A DNA stretch of 64,000 nucleotides from Parafrankia elaeagni (GTDB lineage Bacteria; Actinomycetota; Actinomycetes; Frankiales; Frankiaceae), in assembly GCF_000374165.1 (NCBI RefSeq), contig NZ_KB893723.1, forward strand, positions 1 to 64,000. The letters are read 5' to 3'. The notes beneath the pieces are model-generated. The model saw only the letters and a program-made list of their open reading frames with translations. It did not search any database and was not told the origin of the DNA. Both the position numbers and the translations under genes were made by a program. This document shows positions 8,256 through 59,712 of this stretch, in pieces; position 1 is the first letter of the stretch, and the number at the start of each line of letters is the position of its first letter.

Positions 8256-9467
8256 TCAGCAGATCCGGGGCAGCGGGTCGCCGACGAGCAGGTCGACGAT
8301 CCGGGTGCCGCCGAAGGTCGTGTTCAGCAGCACGGTTCCCGGTGGTTCGTCGACGACCCGGCCGATCACCGCCGCGCCCGCGCCGAGCGGATCCGCGCGC
8401 AGCGCCGCGAGCGCCGCGTCGGCCGCCTCGGGGGCGACGACCGCGACCATCCGGCCCTCGCAGGCCACGTACAGCGGGTCGAGGCCGAGCAGCTCACAGG
8501 CGCCGCGGACCTCGGTGCGCACCGGCACCGCGTCCTCGTCGACCACGACCCCGACACCGGACGCCCGCGCCACCTCGTTGAGGATCGTCGCCACCCCGCC
8601 GCGGGTCGCGTCCCGCATCGCGCGCAGCCCGCCGTGCCCGCCGTGCCCGTCGTGCTCACGGTGCCCGTCGTGCCTGCCGTGGTCCGAATGTGGGCCTGTC
8701 GCCGTGAGCAGCCGGGCGGCGAGCCCGGTCAGCGGGGCGGTGTCCGACCGGAGGTCGGCGCTGATGTCCAGTTCGCCGCGAGCCAGCAGCACGGTGATGC
8801 CGTGGTCGCCGATCGGCCCGGTGACCAGGACGACATCCCCCGGCCGGGCCATGGAGGCGCCGAGCCGCAGGTCGGGGTCGACCAGGCCCACGCCGGTGGT
8901 GGTGATGTAGCACCCGTCGGCCCGGCCGCGCTGGACGACCTTGGTGTCCCCGGTGACGACCGAGACTCCCGCGCGGGCCGCCGCCCCGGCCAGGTCGCCG
9001 ACGATGCGCCGTAGCTCCCCGACGTCCAGCCCCTCCTCCAGGATGACCGCGCAGGCCAGGTGCAGCGGCCGGGCGCCGGCGACCGCCAGGTCGTTGACCG
9101 TGCCGTTCACCGCCAGGTCGCCGATGCTGCCGCCGGGGAAGAACAGCGGCGTCACGACGAAGGAGTCCGTGGTCAGGGCGAGGCGCTCGCTGCCGGCGGT
9201 GAACACCGCGGCGTCCTCCAGCGGCTCCAGCAGCGGGTTGCGTAGCGCCTCGAGGAACACCGCGTCGATCAGCGTCGCCGTGGCCTTGCCGCCGGCGCCG
9301 TGGGCCGACGTGATGTGGGTGTCGCGCAGCTTCGGCCGCCGCCGCCTCGCCGCCTCGACCCGGTCGAGGACTCCGGCGCCGCTCCGCCCGCCGGCACCAC
9401 CTCTCCCGCCGGCACCACCTGCGCCGCCGGTACCGCCCGCCCCGCCTCTCTGCGCTGCTGCCGTCAT
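8256..9467 (-). CDS. hypE: Thiocarbamate dehydratase HypE with a His-rich insertion
   Basis: 403 residues. HypE converts the carbamoyl group received from HypF to a cyano group on its C-terminal Cys; the protein ends PRIC as required. Other motifs are HGAGGKAT, DLAVNGTVNDLAVAGA, VVTGDTKVV and MRDATRGGVATILNE. Two unusual regions stand out. The first ~33 residues are a Gly/Ala-rich repeat with no counterpart in standard HypE. A loop just before MRDATRGG (about 8630-8695) reads HSDHGRHDGHREHDGHGGH, with seven His in 19 residues. The start is ATG 9467, which overlaps the hypD stop by four bases. An upstream extension of the frame runs through hypD out of phase and was not used. Confidence 0.94.
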   Translation of the reverse strand: MTAAAQRGGAGGTGGAGGAGGRGGAGGRSGAGVLDRVEAARRRRPKLRDTHITSAHGAGGKATATLIDAVFLEALRNPLLEPLEDAAVFTAGSERLALTTDSFVVTPLFFPGGSIGDLAVNGTVNDLAVAGARPLHLACAVILEEGLDVGELRRIVGDLAGAAARAGVSVVTGDTKVVQRGRADGCYITTTGVGLVDPDLRLGASMARPGDVVLVTGPIGDHGITVLLARGELDISADLRSDTAPLTGLAARLLTATGPHSDHGRHDGHREHDGHGGHGGLRAMRDATRGGVATILNEVARASGVGVVVDEDAVPVRTEVRGACELLGLDPLYVACEGRMVAVVAPEAADAALAALRADPLGAGAAVIGRVVDEPPGTVLLNTTFGGTRIVDLLVGDPLPRIC

Positions 9468-41910: not shown

Positions 41911-42017
41911 CCCTCAGGCATAATCTGTCGGTCAGCCACGGGGACGTCCATCTGGCCGGGCTGTGCGTAACGCCGCCGGTGTCCCTCTGTGGTATTGGAT
42001 TGCCTGTGGGGGAATTG

Positions 42018-43781
42018 ATGGTCGTTGCGCAGAGATTGTCAAAAGGTGCCAACACGGCGGTTGCCGCGGAGACCGTCCGCGCTGTGGTTTCCTCTGCGTC
42101 CGGCCCGTCCCTCGATGTCTGCGCCGTCCTGGTGACCAGCGCGGGCCAGGTCCGCTCCGACGACGACTTCGTTTTCTACAACCAGCCGCGCCACCGGTCC
42201 GGCGCCGTCAGCCTCGCGACCGGCGGCGCGGACGGTTCCGCCGGCACCGGGGGAACCCTGACCATCGCGACCGGGCGGATCGAGGCCGAGATCGCCACGG
42301 TGGTGATCGCCGGCTCGGTCGACGACGGCACGTTCGCCGGAGTCGGCGGGCTGGTCCTCCAGGTCTGCGACGAGGACGGCCGGCTGCTCGCCGAGTTCGC
42401 GCCGGACACCGCGGAACCGGTCACCACCATGGTCTTCGGCGAGCTGTACCGGCGGGCAACGGGCTGGAAGTTCCGCGCGGTCGGCCAGGGCTGGGACAGC
42501 GGCCTGGCCGGCCTGGCCAGAAGCTTCGGGATCTCCGTCGAGGAGCCGGAGGACGCCCCGGCCGGGTCCGCCGCACCGCAGCGCGGCGCACCTGCGCCCG
42601 CCACACCTGCACCCGCCACACGGGGGACAGCCGGCCCGGGACCCGCTGTGCCGCCCGTGCCCGCTGTGCCGCCGGGACGGGTTCTGCCGCCCATGCCCGC
42701 CCAGCCGTTCGGCGGCGGCGCCCAGCGCCGCGCCGACTGGTATCCCGACCCGGAGGCGGGCGGCGGTCTGCGGTGGTGGGACGGCCACACCTGGACCGCG
42801 CAGACCCGAGGGCAGTTCACCGAATCCGACACCACCTGCGGACGCTGCGGCGCCGCGAAACGCCGCCGCCTCTTTCTCGGGCCGGTGCCCTGCGCGCCCT
42901 GCGAGGACGCGATCCGCAGCATTCTCGCGGACTGGCACCGCCGGCTCGCCGCGGGTATCGACGCCGGCCCGGGAACATCCTCTCTCGAGGATTTCTGGGC
43001 CGAACTGCGTTTCCAGCGCGTCCCCGAGGCCGCCGGCCAGGAGGTGTTCCAGTCCGTGGCGCTGGGCTACCTTCAGCGGCTTGTCACGTTCGCCTTCGCC
43101 GACGAGATCATCGAAGAGCACGAGCTCACCCTCTTCGAGGACGAGGTCCGCCGCCTGGGCATCGGGCACCCCGCGGTCGGGATGATGCGTGAGCGGCTGC
43201 AGCGCGGCCTCGATCTCTCCCGCATCCGCAACGGCGAGCTGCCCCGGGTGACGGTACCGACCCTGCACCTCGACCTGGACGAGATCGTTCACCTGGATGT
43301 GAGTGTGGTGCAGGTTCGCCACCTCGCCAGCGGCCCTCGGCACACCCCTGGACGTCTCGTCGCCAGTAACCGCAAGCTCCGTTTTCTCGCCCAGACCGGT
43401 GCGGGCACGGAACTCGCCTGGGCAAAGGTGGTCGCTGTCGCCGGGAACTACGGAACCGTCGACATCTCGGCGACGACGGCCCGCGGCGGCGGCATCTACC
43501 GCGTCGACGACCCGGAGTACGCGGCGGCCGTCCTCTCCGGTGTGCTGCGCGTCGCGCGGCGGCTGGTGATCGCACCCCGCGGACGCGACAGTCGTGCCGT
43601 TCCGCAGGCGGTGAAGGCGGAGGTCTGGCAGCGTGACAGAGGCGCCTGCGTGCAGTGCAGCGCGACCGAGTACCTGGAGTTCGACCACGTCATCCCGCAC
43701 AGCAGAGGTGGCGCGACCAGTGTGAACAACCTCCAGCTGCTGTGCCGCCGCTGCAACCTGGAGAAGGGCGCGCGGATCTGA
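42018..43781 (+). CDS. TerD - DUF2510 - zinc ribbon - PH-like - HNH nuclease multidomain protein
   Basis: 587 residues from ATG 42018 (GGGGGA five bases upstream). Order: TerD domain, residues ~1-170 (LSKGANTAV, SLDVCAVLV, SDDDFVFYNQPRH); Ala/Pro linker; DUF2510 (ADWYPDPEAGGGLRWWDGHTWT); zinc ribbon (CGRCGAAK, CAPCED); a helical TerB-like part (FAFADEIIEEHELTLFEDEV); a PH-like β domain (GRLVASNRKLRFLAQ to YRVDDPEYAAAVL); and a C-terminal HNH endonuclease (CVQCSATEYLEFDHVIP, then NNLQLLCRRCN). TerD proteins bind calcium and are tied to phage or stress resistance, and HNH cuts nucleic acid. A regulated defence nuclease is inferred. Domain limits after the ribbon are approximate. Confidence 0.85.
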   Translation: MVVAQRLSKGANTAVAAETVRAVVSSASGPSLDVCAVLVTSAGQVRSDDDFVFYNQPRHRSGAVSLATGGADGSAGTGGTLTIATGRIEAEIATVVIAGSVDDGTFAGVGGLVLQVCDEDGRLLAEFAPDTAEPVTTMVFGELYRRATGWKFRAVGQGWDSGLAGLARSFGISVEEPEDAPAGSAAPQRGAPAPATPAPATRGTAGPGPAVPPVPAVPPGRVLPPMPAQPFGGGAQRRADWYPDPEAGGGLRWWDGHTWTAQTRGQFTESDTTCGRCGAAKRRRLFLGPVPCAPCEDAIRSILADWHRRLAAGIDAGPGTSSLEDFWAELRFQRVPEAAGQEVFQSVALGYLQRLVTFAFADEIIEEHELTLFEDEVRRLGIGHPAVGMMRERLQRGLDLSRIRNGELPRVTVPTLHLDLDEIVHLDVSVVQVRHLASGPRHTPGRLVASNRKLRFLAQTGAGTELAWAKVVAVAGNYGTVDISATTARGGGIYRVDDPEYAAAVLSGVLRVARRLVIAPRGRDSRAVPQAVKAEVWQRDRGACVQCSATEYLEFDHVIPHSRGGATSVNNLQLLCRRCNLEKGARI

Positions 43782-45736: not shown

Positions 45737-46960
45737 TTGCTCTTCGTCGAGCATGGCCTGTCACCGGCCGCTGTCTCGTCGCTGTTCGCGCTGTGGTCGC
45801 TCACGGCGTTCCTCACCGAGGTTCCCTCGGGCGTGCTGGCAGACCTGGTGCCGCGCCGGCTGCTGCTGGTCTTCTCTCCGCTGCTGACAGCCGCCGGGTT
45901 CGCCCTCTGGACCCTGGCACCTGGCTTCGGTGCTTTCGCCGCCGGGTTCGTGCTGTGGGGAATCGGCGGGTCGCTGCGGTCGGGCACCTGGCAGGCCTAC
46001 ATCCACGCCGAGCTCACGGCGCTGGGCCGGGTGGACGCCTACCCCCGGCTGACAGGCCGCGCTGAGGCCGTCGGCACCATGTCAGCGCTGGTCGCGGCTG
46101 TGGCGGCAGGCCCGGTGCTGGCCGTGGGCGGATTCGTCACGGTGGGGTTGGCGAGCGTCGCCGCACCTCTGATGGCCGCTGCTCTCGCCCTGGCCCTGCC
46201 CCACACCCGCACCACCATGACCGCTGCCGGGCCTGGCGGGCCTGCCGGGCCTGCCGGGCCTGGCGAGGCCTGCGACGCGGCGGACGGTGGCCGGGATGCG
46301 TGTTCGAGCGTCGGCGGGGAGCAGGAAACAGGGTCGCCTCGGGTTCTCCGCCAGGGCTTGGCGGCTCTGCGCCGCTCGGCGGCGACACGGGTTGCCGTCG
46401 CGATGGTGGCCGGCCTGGCAGCCATCCTCACGCTCGACGAGTACCTGCCCCTGCTCGTCGCCGACACGGGACTCCCACCGTCCCTCGTCCCCGCCGGTTA
46501 CGGGATCATGCTTGCCGGTATCGCCGTCGGCGCCTGGCTGGCCGATCGCGGAACCCGCCACCCGGGTCGGGTACTGGCCGCCGGGGGATGCGCCCTGGCT
46601 GTCGGTGCGCTCAGCGCCACGCCTGTCGGGCTGGTCGGTGTGGCGGTCGCGTTCGGGGTGCTGCAGTGGGCGGCGGTGCAGGCCGACACCCGGTTGCAAC
46701 AGGTCGTTCCGGATTCGTCCCGGGCGACGGTCACCTCGCTCGCCGGGTCCGTGTCCGAGATCGCCTCGGTGGGGGTGTTCGGTTTCTGGGCCGCGGGATC
46801 GGTGTGGGCGGGCCCGACGATGCTGTTCGGCTGCGCCGGTCTGCCGGTGCTCCTGCTGGCCGGTACGTGGCGTCGTTCCAGCAGCCGGCCGGTTCGCGCC
46901 GCCATTCGTTGTTGCACGGTTCGTCTCAAGCGTGGAGCGAATCGATCCACGAAAAGGTGA
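45737..46960 (+). CDS. MFS exporter with a damaged or unresolved 5' end
   Basis: A major facilitator of about 12 helices in which conserved sequence begins upstream of the first usable start (TTG 45737). In the same frame, 45674-45736 encodes ARRLYAYAACEDAVLLYPL, the first part of helix 1. No ATG/GTG/TTG precedes it in that frame before TGA 45638-45640. ATG 45620 is in frame but blocked by this stop. The overlapping frame reads DPTDLPLLRRAL just before it, as if one base were lost near 45674. Motif A-like VPSGVLADLVPRRLL is present. A Gly/Pro repeat lies at 46230-46262. Possible exporter for the peptide encoded downstream. Confidence 0.75.
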   Translation: MLFVEHGLSPAAVSSLFALWSLTAFLTEVPSGVLADLVPRRLLLVFSPLLTAAGFALWTLAPGFGAFAAGFVLWGIGGSLRSGTWQAYIHAELTALGRVDAYPRLTGRAEAVGTMSALVAAVAAGPVLAVGGFVTVGLASVAAPLMAAALALALPHTRTTMTAAGPGGPAGPAGPGEACDAADGGRDACSSVGGEQETGSPRVLRQGLAALRRSAATRVAVAMVAGLAAILTLDEYLPLLVADTGLPPSLVPAGYGIMLAGIAVGAWLADRGTRHPGRVLAAGGCALAVGALSATPVGLVGVAVAFGVLQWAAVQADTRLQQVVPDSSRATVTSLAGSVSEIASVGVFGFWAAGSVWAGPTMLFGCAGLPVLLLAGTWRRSSSRPVRAAIRCCTVRLKRGANRSTKR

Positions 46961-47013: not shown

Positions 47014-47190
47014 GGTGATGAACCCTTTCTGAACCTGCGCTGAAACGGGTGGGGAGACCATGGAGGGTGGTGGAAGGAATGCTCCCCGGGCTCTGGCGAA
47101 CGTGTCCGACCGCGCCGGCCAGGCGAACGGCCGCGACGCGCTCTCGACCAAGCGGCCACCGAACAATCGCGAGCCTGGAACGAGGAGGCC

Positions 47191-47364
47191 ATGATGAAGC
47201 GCAGGTACGAGGCGCCGTCGATCTCGGCGCGAGGATCTTTCCAGGATGTCACCGGAACCTTCTTCTGGGGCTGGCACCGGGGCTGGGGCTGGGGCCACGG
47301 CTGGGGCAGTCGGGGCGGCTGGGGCTGGAACCGCGGCGGCTGGGGACGTGGCTGGGGCTGGTAG
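47191..47364 (+). CDS. 57-residue peptide: lasso-type leader plus Gly/Trp-rich tail, candidate RiPP precursor
   Basis: ATG 47191 (or 47194) to TAG 47362-47364, with GAGGAGG directly upstream. Residues 6-21 are YEAPSISARGSFQDVT, which fits every position of the lasso-peptide leader pattern Y-x2-P-x-[LI]-x3-G-x-F-x3-T. The 35-residue tail (23-57) contains 10 Trp, 14 Gly, 4 Arg and 2 His and no Asp or Glu. A classical lasso ring needs Asp or Glu at core position 7-9, so the product cannot be an ordinary lasso peptide. No lasso cyclase, protease or RRE gene is in the window. Neighbours on the same strand are an MFS exporter (before) and a cytochrome P450 (after). Confidence 0.75.
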   Translation: MMKRRYEAPSISARGSFQDVTGTFFWGWHRGWGWGHGWGSRGGWGWNRGGWGRGWGW

Positions 47365-47610: not shown

Positions 47611-48888
47611 GTGGCCACGGTGAGCGGCGCGGAGACGTCCACGGTCGGGGAGACATCCACGGTCGGCCTCGGCGGGCTGGTGGGCGCGATGACGGCGACC
47701 CGCCTTGCGGACCCCTATCCGCGCTACCGGGAGTTCCGGGAGGCTGCCGCCTTCGTGCCCGACGAGATGGCCGGCCGCACGATCACGCTGGTGACCCGTC
47801 TTGCCGAGGCGTCGGCGGTGCTCGCCCATCCGGCGTCCGGGCACGGGTACGGCGCCGGCATCAGCTACCGCGGGATCGCCGAGGACGGGCTGGGCTCGCT
47901 GCTGCGCGCCGACCCGCCCGACCACACCCGCCTGCGGCGCCTGGTCGGGCGGGCATTCACCCCGGCCGTCATCGAAGCCCTCGTCCCGGAGATCACCTCC
48001 GTGGCGCACACCCTGCTCGACCAGGCGATCGACCAGGGCCGGATCGACGCCGTCGCCTCCTACGCGCGCCCGCTGCCACTGCGGGTGATGTGCCGGCTGC
48101 TCGGCGTCCCGACCGCGGACGAGGAGCTGTTCGGGGGATGGGCGGACGCCCTCAGCCGCGGCCTCGACCCGGCCTACCTGCTCACCGCCGCGGACAAGGC
48201 CGCCTGCAACACGGCGACGGCCGCGTTCGACGCCTACTTCCGCGACCTGATCGCCCGGCGCCGCCGAGAACCACGCGCGGACCTGCTCAGCCGCCTCGTG
48301 GAGATCCACGACGACGGCGACATGCTCACCGAGCGGGAACTGCTCGAACTGTGCACCCTGCTTCTCGTCGCCGGCCACGAGACGACCGTGAACCTCATCA
48401 GCGGCGGCATCCTCGCGCTGCTGCGCAACCCCGAGCAGCTGGCGGCCGTGCGGGCCGATCCGTGGCTGGTCGGCTCCGCCGTCGAGGAGACCCTGCGCCA
48501 CGACCCGCCGGTACAGTTCATCGCCCGCACCATCCTGCAGGACGCCGACATAGCCGGGTACCGGTTCACCCGCGGCGACGGCGCCGTCATCATGATCGGC
48601 GCCGCCAACCGCGACCCGGCCGCGTTCGCCGAACCGGACCGCTTCCGCGCCGCCCGCCACACGAGCTCCGCCGGGACGCGGCGCCACCTCGGGTTCGGCG
48701 TCGGCATCCACTACTGCCTCGGCGCGCCGCTGGCCCGGCTGGAGGCGGACATCGCCTTCCGGGCCCTACTGAACCGGGCGCGCTCCATCACCCTGGCCGA
48801 CGAATCGCCGGCCGGCGGCGCTCTCATCTACCGCCCGCACATCATCCTGCGGGGCCTGGCAAACCTCCCGCTCCACCTGTCAGCCTGA
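47611..48888 (+). CDS. Cytochrome P450
   Basis: 425 residues from GTG 47611, preceded by GGAGGAG. Haem ligand motif FGVGIHYCLGAPLARLE; I-helix LLLVAGHETTVNLIS; K-helix EETLRHDPPV (ExxR); C-helix DPPDHTRLRRLVGRAFTP. Soluble bacterial class, needing ferredoxin and reductase, neither of which is nearby. The N-terminus contains a duplicated ETSTVG. Separated by 246 bases from the Gly/Trp peptide; P450s are known to cross-link aromatic residues in some RiPPs, but here the link is only positional. Confidence 0.93.
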   Translation: MATVSGAETSTVGETSTVGLGGLVGAMTATRLADPYPRYREFREAAAFVPDEMAGRTITLVTRLAEASAVLAHPASGHGYGAGISYRGIAEDGLGSLLRADPPDHTRLRRLVGRAFTPAVIEALVPEITSVAHTLLDQAIDQGRIDAVASYARPLPLRVMCRLLGVPTADEELFGGWADALSRGLDPAYLLTAADKAACNTATAAFDAYFRDLIARRRREPRADLLSRLVEIHDDGDMLTERELLELCTLLLVAGHETTVNLISGGILALLRNPEQLAAVRADPWLVGSAVEETLRHDPPVQFIARTILQDADIAGYRFTRGDGAVIMIGAANRDPAAFAEPDRFRAARHTSSAGTRRHLGFGVGIHYCLGAPLARLEADIAFRALLNRARSITLADESPAGGALIYRPHIILRGLANLPLHLSA

Positions 48889-56826: not shown

Positions 56827-59712
56827 ATGAACGCGGGAACATCTCCGGTGAGGGAACCACCGGAGCGGGCCGGTGCCAGAATTCTCGTCTCCTATGCTGC
56901 CGAGGACAGGGCATGGGCAGAATGGCTCGGGTGGATGCTGGAAGAAGACGGCTTCCTGGTGTTCGTCGCCTGCTGGGACGACCTTCCGGGCACACGTTCC
57001 GTCGGCCTTCTGGACAGCTATCTGCGCAGCGCGGACCGGACGATAGTGCTGTTGTCCGAGGCCTATCTGCGGAATGGCCGGCCGGCTGAATGGCAGACCG
57101 CCTGGGCGGCTGATCCCGACGGCCGGGAGCGGTCGCTCCTGGTGGTCCGGATCGATGGCTGCGAGGATGCCGGCCTGCTCGGGCAGATCGTGCCGATCGA
57201 TCTGTTCGCTGTCGATCGGGACGAGGCGCGACGCCGCCTCCGGGTCGCTGTCCACGGGCGGCGGGGCAGACCGGACCAGTCACCGCCCTTTCCCGGCCGG
57301 GCCGCGCGGGTGGCTGCCGGCAACGGTGATCCGCTCCCGCCAGCGGGCGGAGAGCCGATGTATCCGGGGTCGCGCCACCGGGTGTGGAACGCCCCGCCCC
57401 GGGTCGCGCAGTTCGTCGGACGGGACGATCTTCTGGCGGCTGTCGCGGCGACACTCGGTGCTCCGGCAACCGGTGCTCCGGCAACCGGTGCTCCGGCAAC
57501 CGGCACACCGCGAGCGGTGGCGCTCGTCGGCCTGGGCGGCGTCGGGAAGAGCTCACTGGCGCTGGAGTACGTCTACCGCCACGCGGACGAGTACGACGTC
57601 GTCTGGTGGGTCCCCGCCGAGCCCGCGGAGCTGATCTCCGGCCATCTCGCGACGTTGGGCGAGGCACTCGGTCTTCCTCGTGACGCCGGCCCGGCGGCGA
57701 CGATCGCGGCCCTGGGCCGGGCCGGCCGATGGCTGCTGGTCTTCGACAACGCCGACCGGATCGAGGACGTGGCACCGTTCCGGCCGCCCTGGGACGGTGG
57801 CCACCTCCTCGTGACCTCCCGCCAGCCCGGCTGGGGTTCGGTGGCGGCGACGGTGGATGTCCCGGTCCTGCGGCGGGCCGAGTCGGTGTCGCTGCTCGCC
57901 GGCCGGCTCTCCGGGGCGAGCCCGCACGCCCTGGACCAGATCGCCGAGCTGCTCGGCGATCTGGCGCTGGCCGTCGAGCAGGCCGCGGCGTTCCTCCAGC
58001 ACAGCCGGACGCCCGCGGAGGACTTCGCGGCGCTGCTGCCGCACCGCCTTGAGGACGTCACAGACCTCGGCGAGGTCGCCGACCGGCCCGGGCAGACTGT
58101 GGCCAACCTCTGGGATCTCTCCGTCCGGCGCCTCTCCGCGCGGCGGCCGGGCGCCGTGGAGCTCCTCGAACTGCTGGCCTTCGTCGGTGACGAACCGGTG
58201 CCTCTCGACCTGTTCACCAACGCCCCCGACCGGCTGGGCGACGGTCCGCTCGGCGGCGACGCACGCGATCCGGTCGCCTGGGTGCGGACGGTCGGTGACC
58301 TGGTCGGGCACGGCCTGGCGGATCGTACGAACACGGTGGTGAAGGTGCACCGTCTGGTGCGGGCGACCTCACGGCGCCGCATCGCCGCTGCCCGCCGCCG
58401 TGAGGCGTGCCTGACGACGCTGCTCGGGCTGCTGCGTGCGGCCATCCCGCAGCGGGTCCAGAGCAACCCGGACGCCTGGCCGCGCTGGCGGGCGCTGTTT
58501 CCGCACGTCCAGGCAGCCCTGGACCGGCCGGATGACCAGTTCGCCGCTGCCGGCCGTGCTGATCTCTCCTGGCTGTGCGACCGGGCCGCCGGCTATCTCC
58601 GGGAGCAGGGGTTGCCGGCCGCCGCGCGTCCGTACGCCGAACGGGCCCTCGCGCACGCCGAGGCCCTGTTCGGCCCCACGCACCCGGAGGTCGCCAGCTG
58701 CCTGAACAACAACGCGATGACGCTGCTCGACCTCGGCCGGCCGGCCGAGGCGCTTCCGCTCGCGCGACGGGCGCTGGACATCGCACTGCGGGTGCACGGG
58801 GAGCAGCACAGCGATGTCGCGGTGGCGCTCAACAATCTTGCGGGGGTGCTGCGGGAGCTCGGAGCGCCGCGTCCCGCGCTGGGGCTGCTGCGCCGTGCAC
58901 TGGCGATCGACCGGAGGCTCGGCGGTGACACCGGCCCGGACATCGCGGCCCGGCTGTGTAGCCTGGCGCAGTGCCTGCGCGAACTCGGGCGGTTCGACGA
59001 CGCACTCCCGCTGGCACGGGCAGCCCTGCGGATGGACGAGGATCTACACGGAGCGTTTCACCCGGTCGTGGCGGGCGACCTCGCGGCGCTGGCTGACATC
59101 ACGCAGGACCTGGGCCGGCCGGCCGAGGGGGAACCACTGGCTCGGCGGGCGCTGGCGATCGACGAAGGCGTGTACCACGGTGCTCATCCGATCGTCGCGA
59201 TCAGGCTGAACAGCCTGGCCGGCATACTGCAGGATCTCGGCCGCCTGGACGAGGCCCGGGCGTGGCTGGAGCGTGCGTTGGCCATCGACGAGCGGGTCCA
59301 CGGCGCGGTGCATCCGGCGATCGCGGTCGATCTCAACAACCTGGCGCAGGTTCTGCAGGATCTCGGTCGCCTGGACGAGGCCCGGGCGTGGCTGGAGCGT
59401 GCGTTGGCCATCGACGAGCGGGTCCACGGTGCGGTGCATCCGGCGGTGGCCTCGGATCTCCAGGGGCTGGCGCATGTCCTGCAGGATCTCGGCCGCCTGG
59501 ACGAGGCCCGTCGGCTGCTCGAACGCGCGGTGTCGGTCGACACGGCCGTACACGGCCCGGACCATCCCGTCGTCGCCCGCCGCCTGCGCAATCTGGCGGG
59601 GATCTACCAGGCGCTCGGCTGGGCGGAGACGGGCACGGCCGCGACCGCGCGGGCATCGGCCATTCTGGCCGCCGCGCGCAGGCCGGAGGATCCCACCGCC
59701 CCCGCGCCATGA
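56827..59712 (+). CDS. TIR - NB-ARC - TPR protein (bacterial NLR-like)
   Basis: 961 residues. The N-terminal TIR domain (residues ~18-145) starts RILVSYAAEDRAWAEWLG, with CWDDLPGTRSVGLLDSYL and TIVLLSEAYLR; TIR domains often degrade NAD or signal after infection. A linker with three GAPAT repeats precedes the NB-ARC ATPase: P-loop GLGGVGKSSLALEY (from residue ~235), Walker B RWLLVFDNAD, LLVTSR, and VKVHRLVR at the MHD position. The C-terminus is ~9 kinesin-light-chain-type TPRs. Three 42-residue TPR units near the end (59227, 59353, 59479) are almost identical at DNA level. Domain order suggests an infection or stress sensor. The putative catalytic Glu of the TIR cannot be fixed by eye. Confidence 0.88.
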   Translation: MNAGTSPVREPPERAGARILVSYAAEDRAWAEWLGWMLEEDGFLVFVACWDDLPGTRSVGLLDSYLRSADRTIVLLSEAYLRNGRPAEWQTAWAADPDGRERSLLVVRIDGCEDAGLLGQIVPIDLFAVDRDEARRRLRVAVHGRRGRPDQSPPFPGRAARVAAGNGDPLPPAGGEPMYPGSRHRVWNAPPRVAQFVGRDDLLAAVAATLGAPATGAPATGAPATGTPRAVALVGLGGVGKSSLALEYVYRHADEYDVVWWVPAEPAELISGHLATLGEALGLPRDAGPAATIAALGRAGRWLLVFDNADRIEDVAPFRPPWDGGHLLVTSRQPGWGSVAATVDVPVLRRAESVSLLAGRLSGASPHALDQIAELLGDLALAVEQAAAFLQHSRTPAEDFAALLPHRLEDVTDLGEVADRPGQTVANLWDLSVRRLSARRPGAVELLELLAFVGDEPVPLDLFTNAPDRLGDGPLGGDARDPVAWVRTVGDLVGHGLADRTNTVVKVHRLVRATSRRRIAAARRREACLTTLLGLLRAAIPQRVQSNPDAWPRWRALFPHVQAALDRPDDQFAAAGRADLSWLCDRAAGYLREQGLPAAARPYAERALAHAEALFGPTHPEVASCLNNNAMTLLDLGRPAEALPLARRALDIALRVHGEQHSDVAVALNNLAGVLRELGAPRPALGLLRRALAIDRRLGGDTGPDIAARLCSLAQCLRELGRFDDALPLARAALRMDEDLHGAFHPVVAGDLAALADITQDLGRPAEGEPLARRALAIDEGVYHGAHPIVAIRLNSLAGILQDLGRLDEARAWLERALAIDERVHGAVHPAIAVDLNNLAQVLQDLGRLDEARAWLERALAIDERVHGAVHPAVASDLQGLAHVLQDLGRLDEARRLLERAVSVDTAVHGPDHPVVARRLRNLAGIYQALGWAETGTAATARASAILAAARRPEDPTAPAP
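57457..57501 (+). repeat. Three 15-bp tandem repeats in the TIR-NB-ARC linker
   Basis: ggtgctccggcaacc three times in register, encoding GAPAT units. They lengthen the linker before the P-loop. Confidence 0.9.
59227..59604 (+). repeat. 126-bp TPR-coding repeats, three units
   Basis: Units begin at 59227, 59353 and 59479 with ctgcaggatctcgg. The first two are nearly identical over about 80 bases, pointing to a recent duplication or gene conversion. Confidence 0.88.

Follow-up and report, generated by a model that had tools for sequence, protein, structure and literature searches.

Results

The gene at the centre of this work encodes a 57-residue precursor peptide and occupies 47191..47364 of the forward (+) strand of the window, i.e., of the whole stretch of 64,000 nucleotides of Parafrankia elaeagni that was analysed. 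It opens with ATG ATG, closes with a TAG stop at 47362-47364 and translates as MMKRRYEAPSISARGSFQDVTGTFFWGWHRGWGWGHGWGSRGGWGWNRGGWGRGWGW; a Shine-Dalgarno-like word, GAGGAGG, serves as its ribosome-binding site (47182..47188, +). Its leader recognition segment, YEAPSISARGSFQDVT, runs from Tyr(-17) to Thr(-2) (47206..47253, +), as assigned by register and family alignment, and agrees with Y-x2-P-x-[LI]-x3-G-x-F-x3-T at all six stated positions. The predicted core (47257..47361, +), with a cleavage site inferred from Thr(-2), has 35 residues, 10 of them Trp, 14 Gly and none Asp or Glu. An MFS transporter gene (45737..46960, +) lies on one side and a cytochrome P450 gene with an uncertain start codon (47611..48888, +) on the other. 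Frame, ribosome-binding site, leader, tail composition and both flanking genes had been given in a preliminary description of this DNA, and all were recovered when re-derived from the window sequence. Elsewhere in the window, a 600-aa frame (41979-43781, +) fuses a TerD domain, a DUF2510 and an HNH endonuclease domain, and a 961-aa frame (56827-59712, +) has what we take, by eye, to be a TIR-like start, an NTPase and tetratricopeptide-like repeats.

A chance frame can be rejected, as the full pattern of start, leader, tail and stop occurs once in the window and in none of 150 windows simulated with its dinucleotide composition. With Thr21 set as -2, Tyr6 falls at -17, Pro9 at -14 and Ile11 at -12, so that the peptide has the lasso-leader register Y(-17), P(-14), L/I(-12), T(-2) as given in the available part of PMC10368454. 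It scores slightly under the cut-offs of NCBIfam lasso_leader_L3 (17.6 bits vs 19) and Pfam DUF5972 (18.8 bits vs 22.6), and relatives pass the NCBIfam leader cut-off with 19.6 to 29.1 bits. The orthologue in Parafrankia colletiae shares 93% identity with it and that in Parafrankia sp. EUN1f about 75%, and the window's genome has a second Gly/Trp precursor gene, on contig C56, with 59% identity to the window peptide over the aligned part.

The P450 and the MFS protein had been proposed as cross-linking enzyme and exporter of the peptide, and neither proposal is supported by comparison. Among genomes carrying the same peptide subfamily, the order MFS-peptide-P450 is shared only with P. colletiae, the subfamily loci of EUN1f and G019 having different flanking genes. 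P450 orthologues (at least 63% identity) occur in 13 of 36 genomes and adjoin a leader peptide in two; in the other 11 they are on contigs other than those with family peptides, in assemblies that are fragmented. Both were rejected as partners on these grounds. The preliminary description had also missed that the genes for the RRE protein, B1, and for B2 are present in the window's genome, though unlinked to the peptide.

Frames with this leader and a Gly/Trp-rich tail are widespread in relatives, so that the finding which the preliminary description had named as fatal to its reading, the absence of any homologous leader with a Trp-rich tail, does not apply. A 25-row family profile matches 29 of 36 Frankiaceae genomes at E<=1e-3. 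Once four matches are set aside (G007 and G035 as lasso-type, G025 for its acids and G006 as unread), a Gly/Trp precursor is present in 25 of the 36, some frames being cut by contig ends. Y, P, G, F and T of the leader are invariant across 25 aligned members, and a Shine-Dalgarno-like word stands ahead of 31 of 40 family frames, as against 276 of 2000 random positions. A lasso ring needs an Asp or Glu in position 7-9 of the core. None of the 37 Gly/Trp frames read, the window's included, has an acid there; 35 are acid-free throughout, and the remaining two have acids only at core 39, or at 24 and 43. Lasso-leader register and acid-free core together bear out the earlier suggestion that lasso-leader recognition is kept and something other than a canonical lasso is made. 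Two Gly/Trp precursors share a locus in L118, L119, L120, L114 and L117, next to each other except in L117, where about 3 kb separates them. Across 394 genomes of the class, with at most 16 candidates scored per genome, there are 29 matches at E<=1e-4, 28 of them in Frankiaceae; the sole other match (G336) resembles an ordinary lasso precursor, and a spread of the family beyond Frankiaceae was rejected. The family is not named anywhere in the open-licence papers searched.

Leader pN/pS is 0.42, from 595 non-independent pairs with pS near-saturated, and in each of the six alignable tail pairs synonymous divergence is the greater. The window and P. colletiae genes differ by two synonymous and four nonsynonymous changes, which gives no sign of constraint on the window copy itself.

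The machinery for lasso leaders is at hand, and in the window's genus it has lost its cyclase. Of the 36 genomes, 32 have B2 (PF13471) above cut-off, among them each of the 25 that carry a Gly/Trp precursor; in the window's genus B1 reaches 110.3 bits and B2 113.8 bits against NCBIfam cut-offs of 70 and 33, respectively. Both are encoded in the window's own genome (copies in L093), unlinked to the window precursor. The locus of sister genomes mostly reads SARP, precursor, cyclase, B1, B2, ABC, and a full lasso locus persists in many genomes outside the window's genus. The seven genomes of that genus all lack the Frankia-type cyclase, which 22 of the 36 possess. Judged from coordinates, 21 of the 32 B2-bearing genomes have a B2 gene with a cyclase or an Asn-synthase domain next to it; in the other 11, namely G025, G027, G030, G033 and the seven of the window's genus, the main locus has no cyclase. 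By tblastn no macrolactam cyclase is seen in the window genome's own locus (G000:C36) or in five further loci of the genus; these six have SARP, B1, B2 and ABC genes and no leader peptide detectable by pattern. The seventh genome, G021, has no PF00733 match on its B2 contig, and G019, of the same genus, has a second locus, on C33, with B2 and an Asn-synthase domain. RREs without a cyclase have turned up in large numbers before: according to the accessible part of PMC7470986, leader peptidase and cyclase accompany only about 4,000 of nearly 8,000 discrete lasso-type RREs, and those without a cyclase are treated as possible false positives.

States between a lasso locus and a cyclase-free one can be found in living genera. 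Sister genera have true Asp8 lasso precursors, and Asp occupies core position 8 in those precursors that were read next to a g2 or g7 cyclase. In genus g6 a local Tyr/Arg-rich leader peptide has Asp9 with a cyclase in G024 (L210), Gly9 with a cyclase in G023 (L209) and Asn9 without one in G027 (L198). In the cyclase-free G033 a leaderless tail, GGGGVIIIGGGGGGW, lies between SARP and B1 (L200, about 9000-9400), near intact-looking B1 and B2; it matches the last part of the G031 lasso precursor and would be a deletion scar. G025 is an exception, cyclase-free and yet with a local precursor that contains acids. The lasso precursors of L122, L123, L202, L203 and L206 have an Asp8 core and then a long Gly-rich C-terminal follower (IIIVGGG or VIIIGGGGGG). 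A hydrophobic-polyGly motif is common to g1 precursors and g7 lasso followers, being present in 8 of 36 orphan rows and in five of the ten others, L112 among these ten being misfiled by pattern; as a mark of descent it is suggestive, no more.

The partner that does recur was missed in the preliminary description. It is a VioD-like flavin monooxygenase (PF01494), which by neighbour clustering adjoins a Gly/Trp peptide in 18 loci of three genera, always downstream and on the same strand, its start lying 91-276 nt beyond the nearest peptide stop; the remaining neighbours of such loci vary by genus. One orthologue is present in each of 24 of the 36 genomes (best E 1e-303 to 1e-130), besides one remote homologue in G032, and in 23 of the 24 a peptide gene or tail lies just upstream on the same strand, as a whole peptide in 19 and a tail only in four. 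Among the six loci outside the mapped set, G008 has a full peptide and G002, G004, G034 and G035 a Gly/Trp tail only, these probably being contig ends or, for G034, an assembly fault; G014 has an orthologue with no peptide upstream, and no B2 match either. The window's genome carries its peptide-monooxygenase pair on another contig, and no monooxygenase adjoins the window copy or the three subfamily loci.

The closest solved structures are those of VioD (E 2e-41 and 3e-39 for L103, over about 340 residues; 8e-32 and 4e-34 for L102). VioD is the indole-5-hydroxylase of violacein biosynthesis and acts at indole C5, according to the available text of PMC5577590. NCBIfam scores are higher for salicylyl-CoA 5-hydroxylase (324-359 bits) than for VioD (156-179 bits against a cut-off of 620), all far below equivalog cut-offs, and the substrate may therefore not be Trp. 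At E<=1e-60, 91 of the 394 genomes of the class (Frankiaceae among them) have Streptomyces-type homologues; no leader peptide lies upstream of the three that were read, and wider maps of five such loci and of G014 (gene calls of at least 60 aa) show no common pathway at a glance. In a tree of the monooxygenases the 23 peptide-linked rows cluster (support 91/95), with G014 and G086 outside, a grouping made weak by the midpoint root. A Pfam scan of two large neighbour proteins (L127:9893-12646 and L097:8587-10047) returned no match. In genus g2 a 1408-aa protein with two sets of old-yellow-enzyme and Pyr_redox domains (L110:2485-6711) adjoins the monooxygenase.

Discussion

The window peptide is not a lasso peptide, since two of the features that define one, an acid at core 7-9 and a cyclase with the B1-B2 locus, are absent; it is lasso-derived in leader and machinery. 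We consider it somewhat probable, on the strength of sequence comparison, that it belongs to a lasso-derived linear RiPP family in which B1/B2 would cut the leader in trans and the VioD-like enzyme would probably oxidise Trp, the window gene being a second, unlinked precursor. B1, the RRE protein encoded elsewhere in the genome, would bind the YxxPxI leader, the monooxygenase encoded beside the paralogous precursor would oxidise at least one core Trp, probably at indole C5, B2 would then cleave after Thr-x, and the ABC transporter of the B1-B2 locus would export the linear peptide, no macrolactam being expected from an acid-free core and a locus without a cyclase. Processing of the window copy would have to occur in trans, which is plausible given the relaxed specificity of actinobacterial FusB1 described in the part of PMC13381572 at hand. 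We are fairly sure of the strongest step of this explanation, namely that the window gene encodes a genuine precursor with a leader; the weakest is that the window copy is a substrate of the linked-type monooxygenase, which may be so but which we hold in some doubt. Only tentatively would we speak of a new Frankiaceae RiPP class of linear, hydroxy-tryptophan, Gly/Trp-rich peptides, in which the ring-closing enzyme would have been lost, a VioD-like monooxygenase gained and one B1/B2 set shared by several unlinked precursors.

It may be asked whether the peptide is modified at all. A linear RiPP could simply be cleaved from its leader and exported as it is, the monooxygenase being an aryl-CoA catabolic enzyme that happens to share the locus; its top family score, to salicylyl-CoA 5-hydroxylase, the old-yellow-enzyme-type protein (cluster 29) adjoining it in Frankia genus g2, which would fit aryl-CoA degradation, and the want of a monooxygenase beside the window copy all agree with this. 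Such coincidence of locus would, however, have to hold in 23 of 24 genomes in spite of genus-specific other neighbours, and for an enzyme whose nearest solved structures are VioD, so that we regard an unmodified peptide as unlikely. The cross-linking of the peptide by the P450 and its export by the MFS protein, as first proposed, has the gene order of the window and P. colletiae to recommend it, but that order is absent from the other two subfamily genomes and the P450 orthologues are unlinked in 11 of 13, which leaves the proposal very improbable.

The family might also be no more than decayed lasso precursors, i.e., functionless, pseudogene-like leftovers with repeat-expanded tails. Low-complexity tails, the remnant of a lasso precursor in the G033 locus and the few, mostly nonsynonymous changes between the window and P. 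colletiae genes are what decay would leave behind; the leader pN/pS, the synonymous excess in every alignable tail pair, the retained Shine-Dalgarno words, the tandem copies and the linkage to one enzyme are not, and decay seems to us quite improbable. Less credible still, and not supported here, is a Trp-sensing attenuator, in which the Trp-rich frame would be the regulatory leader of the downstream flavin gene. A small Trp-rich frame upstream of an enzyme possibly tied to anthranilate-type metabolism does invite the thought, but in 18 intergenic stretches no T run exceeds four (and three of them have a run of four), which speaks against attenuation, as do the Gly residues between the Trp codons, the conservation of the N-terminal leader motif as protein and the copies, the window's among them, that have no downstream gene.

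If the favoured reading, a lasso-derived linear RiPP with oxidised Trp, is correct, a lasso pathway would have turned into a linear-peptide pathway by the joint loss of ring acid and cyclase, with the intermediates visible in living genera, and a flavin-dependent Trp oxidase would be added to the RiPP toolbox. It would also supply a rule for genome mining, namely to search for lasso leaders that precede acid-free Gly/Trp tails and lie apart from the lasso genes, precursors that cluster-based tools are expected to overlook.

Of the known systems, actinobacterial lasso peptides of class II, made from a precursor by B1, B2 and a cyclase, share with this family the leader register, B1, B2, the ABC transporter and a SARP-type regulator in the gene order; the differences are that the family has no acid at core 7-9 and that the B1-B2 locus of the window's genus has no cyclase. 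VioD acts on a small bis-indole, whereas the linked monooxygenase adjoins a ribosomal peptide gene. The closest known system, as far as the accessible part of PMC13381572 describes it, is the LPPs (linear polyphosphorylated peptides) of Bacillota, linear RiPPs with lasso-like leaders, which have in common with the Frankiaceae family a [Y/W]xxP leader, a discrete RRE, an exporter, the lack of a macrolactam cyclase, a presumed linear product and a variable C-terminal part. LPPs have a signal-peptidase-like protease, an HprK-like kinase and an NTP transferase of their own, all in one cluster, whereas the Frankiaceae family has a lasso B2 protease, a Gly/Trp core, a candidate flavin monooxygenase and a precursor unlinked from B1/B2; its leader motif, G-x-F-x3-T, is of the lasso type and the locus contains B2.
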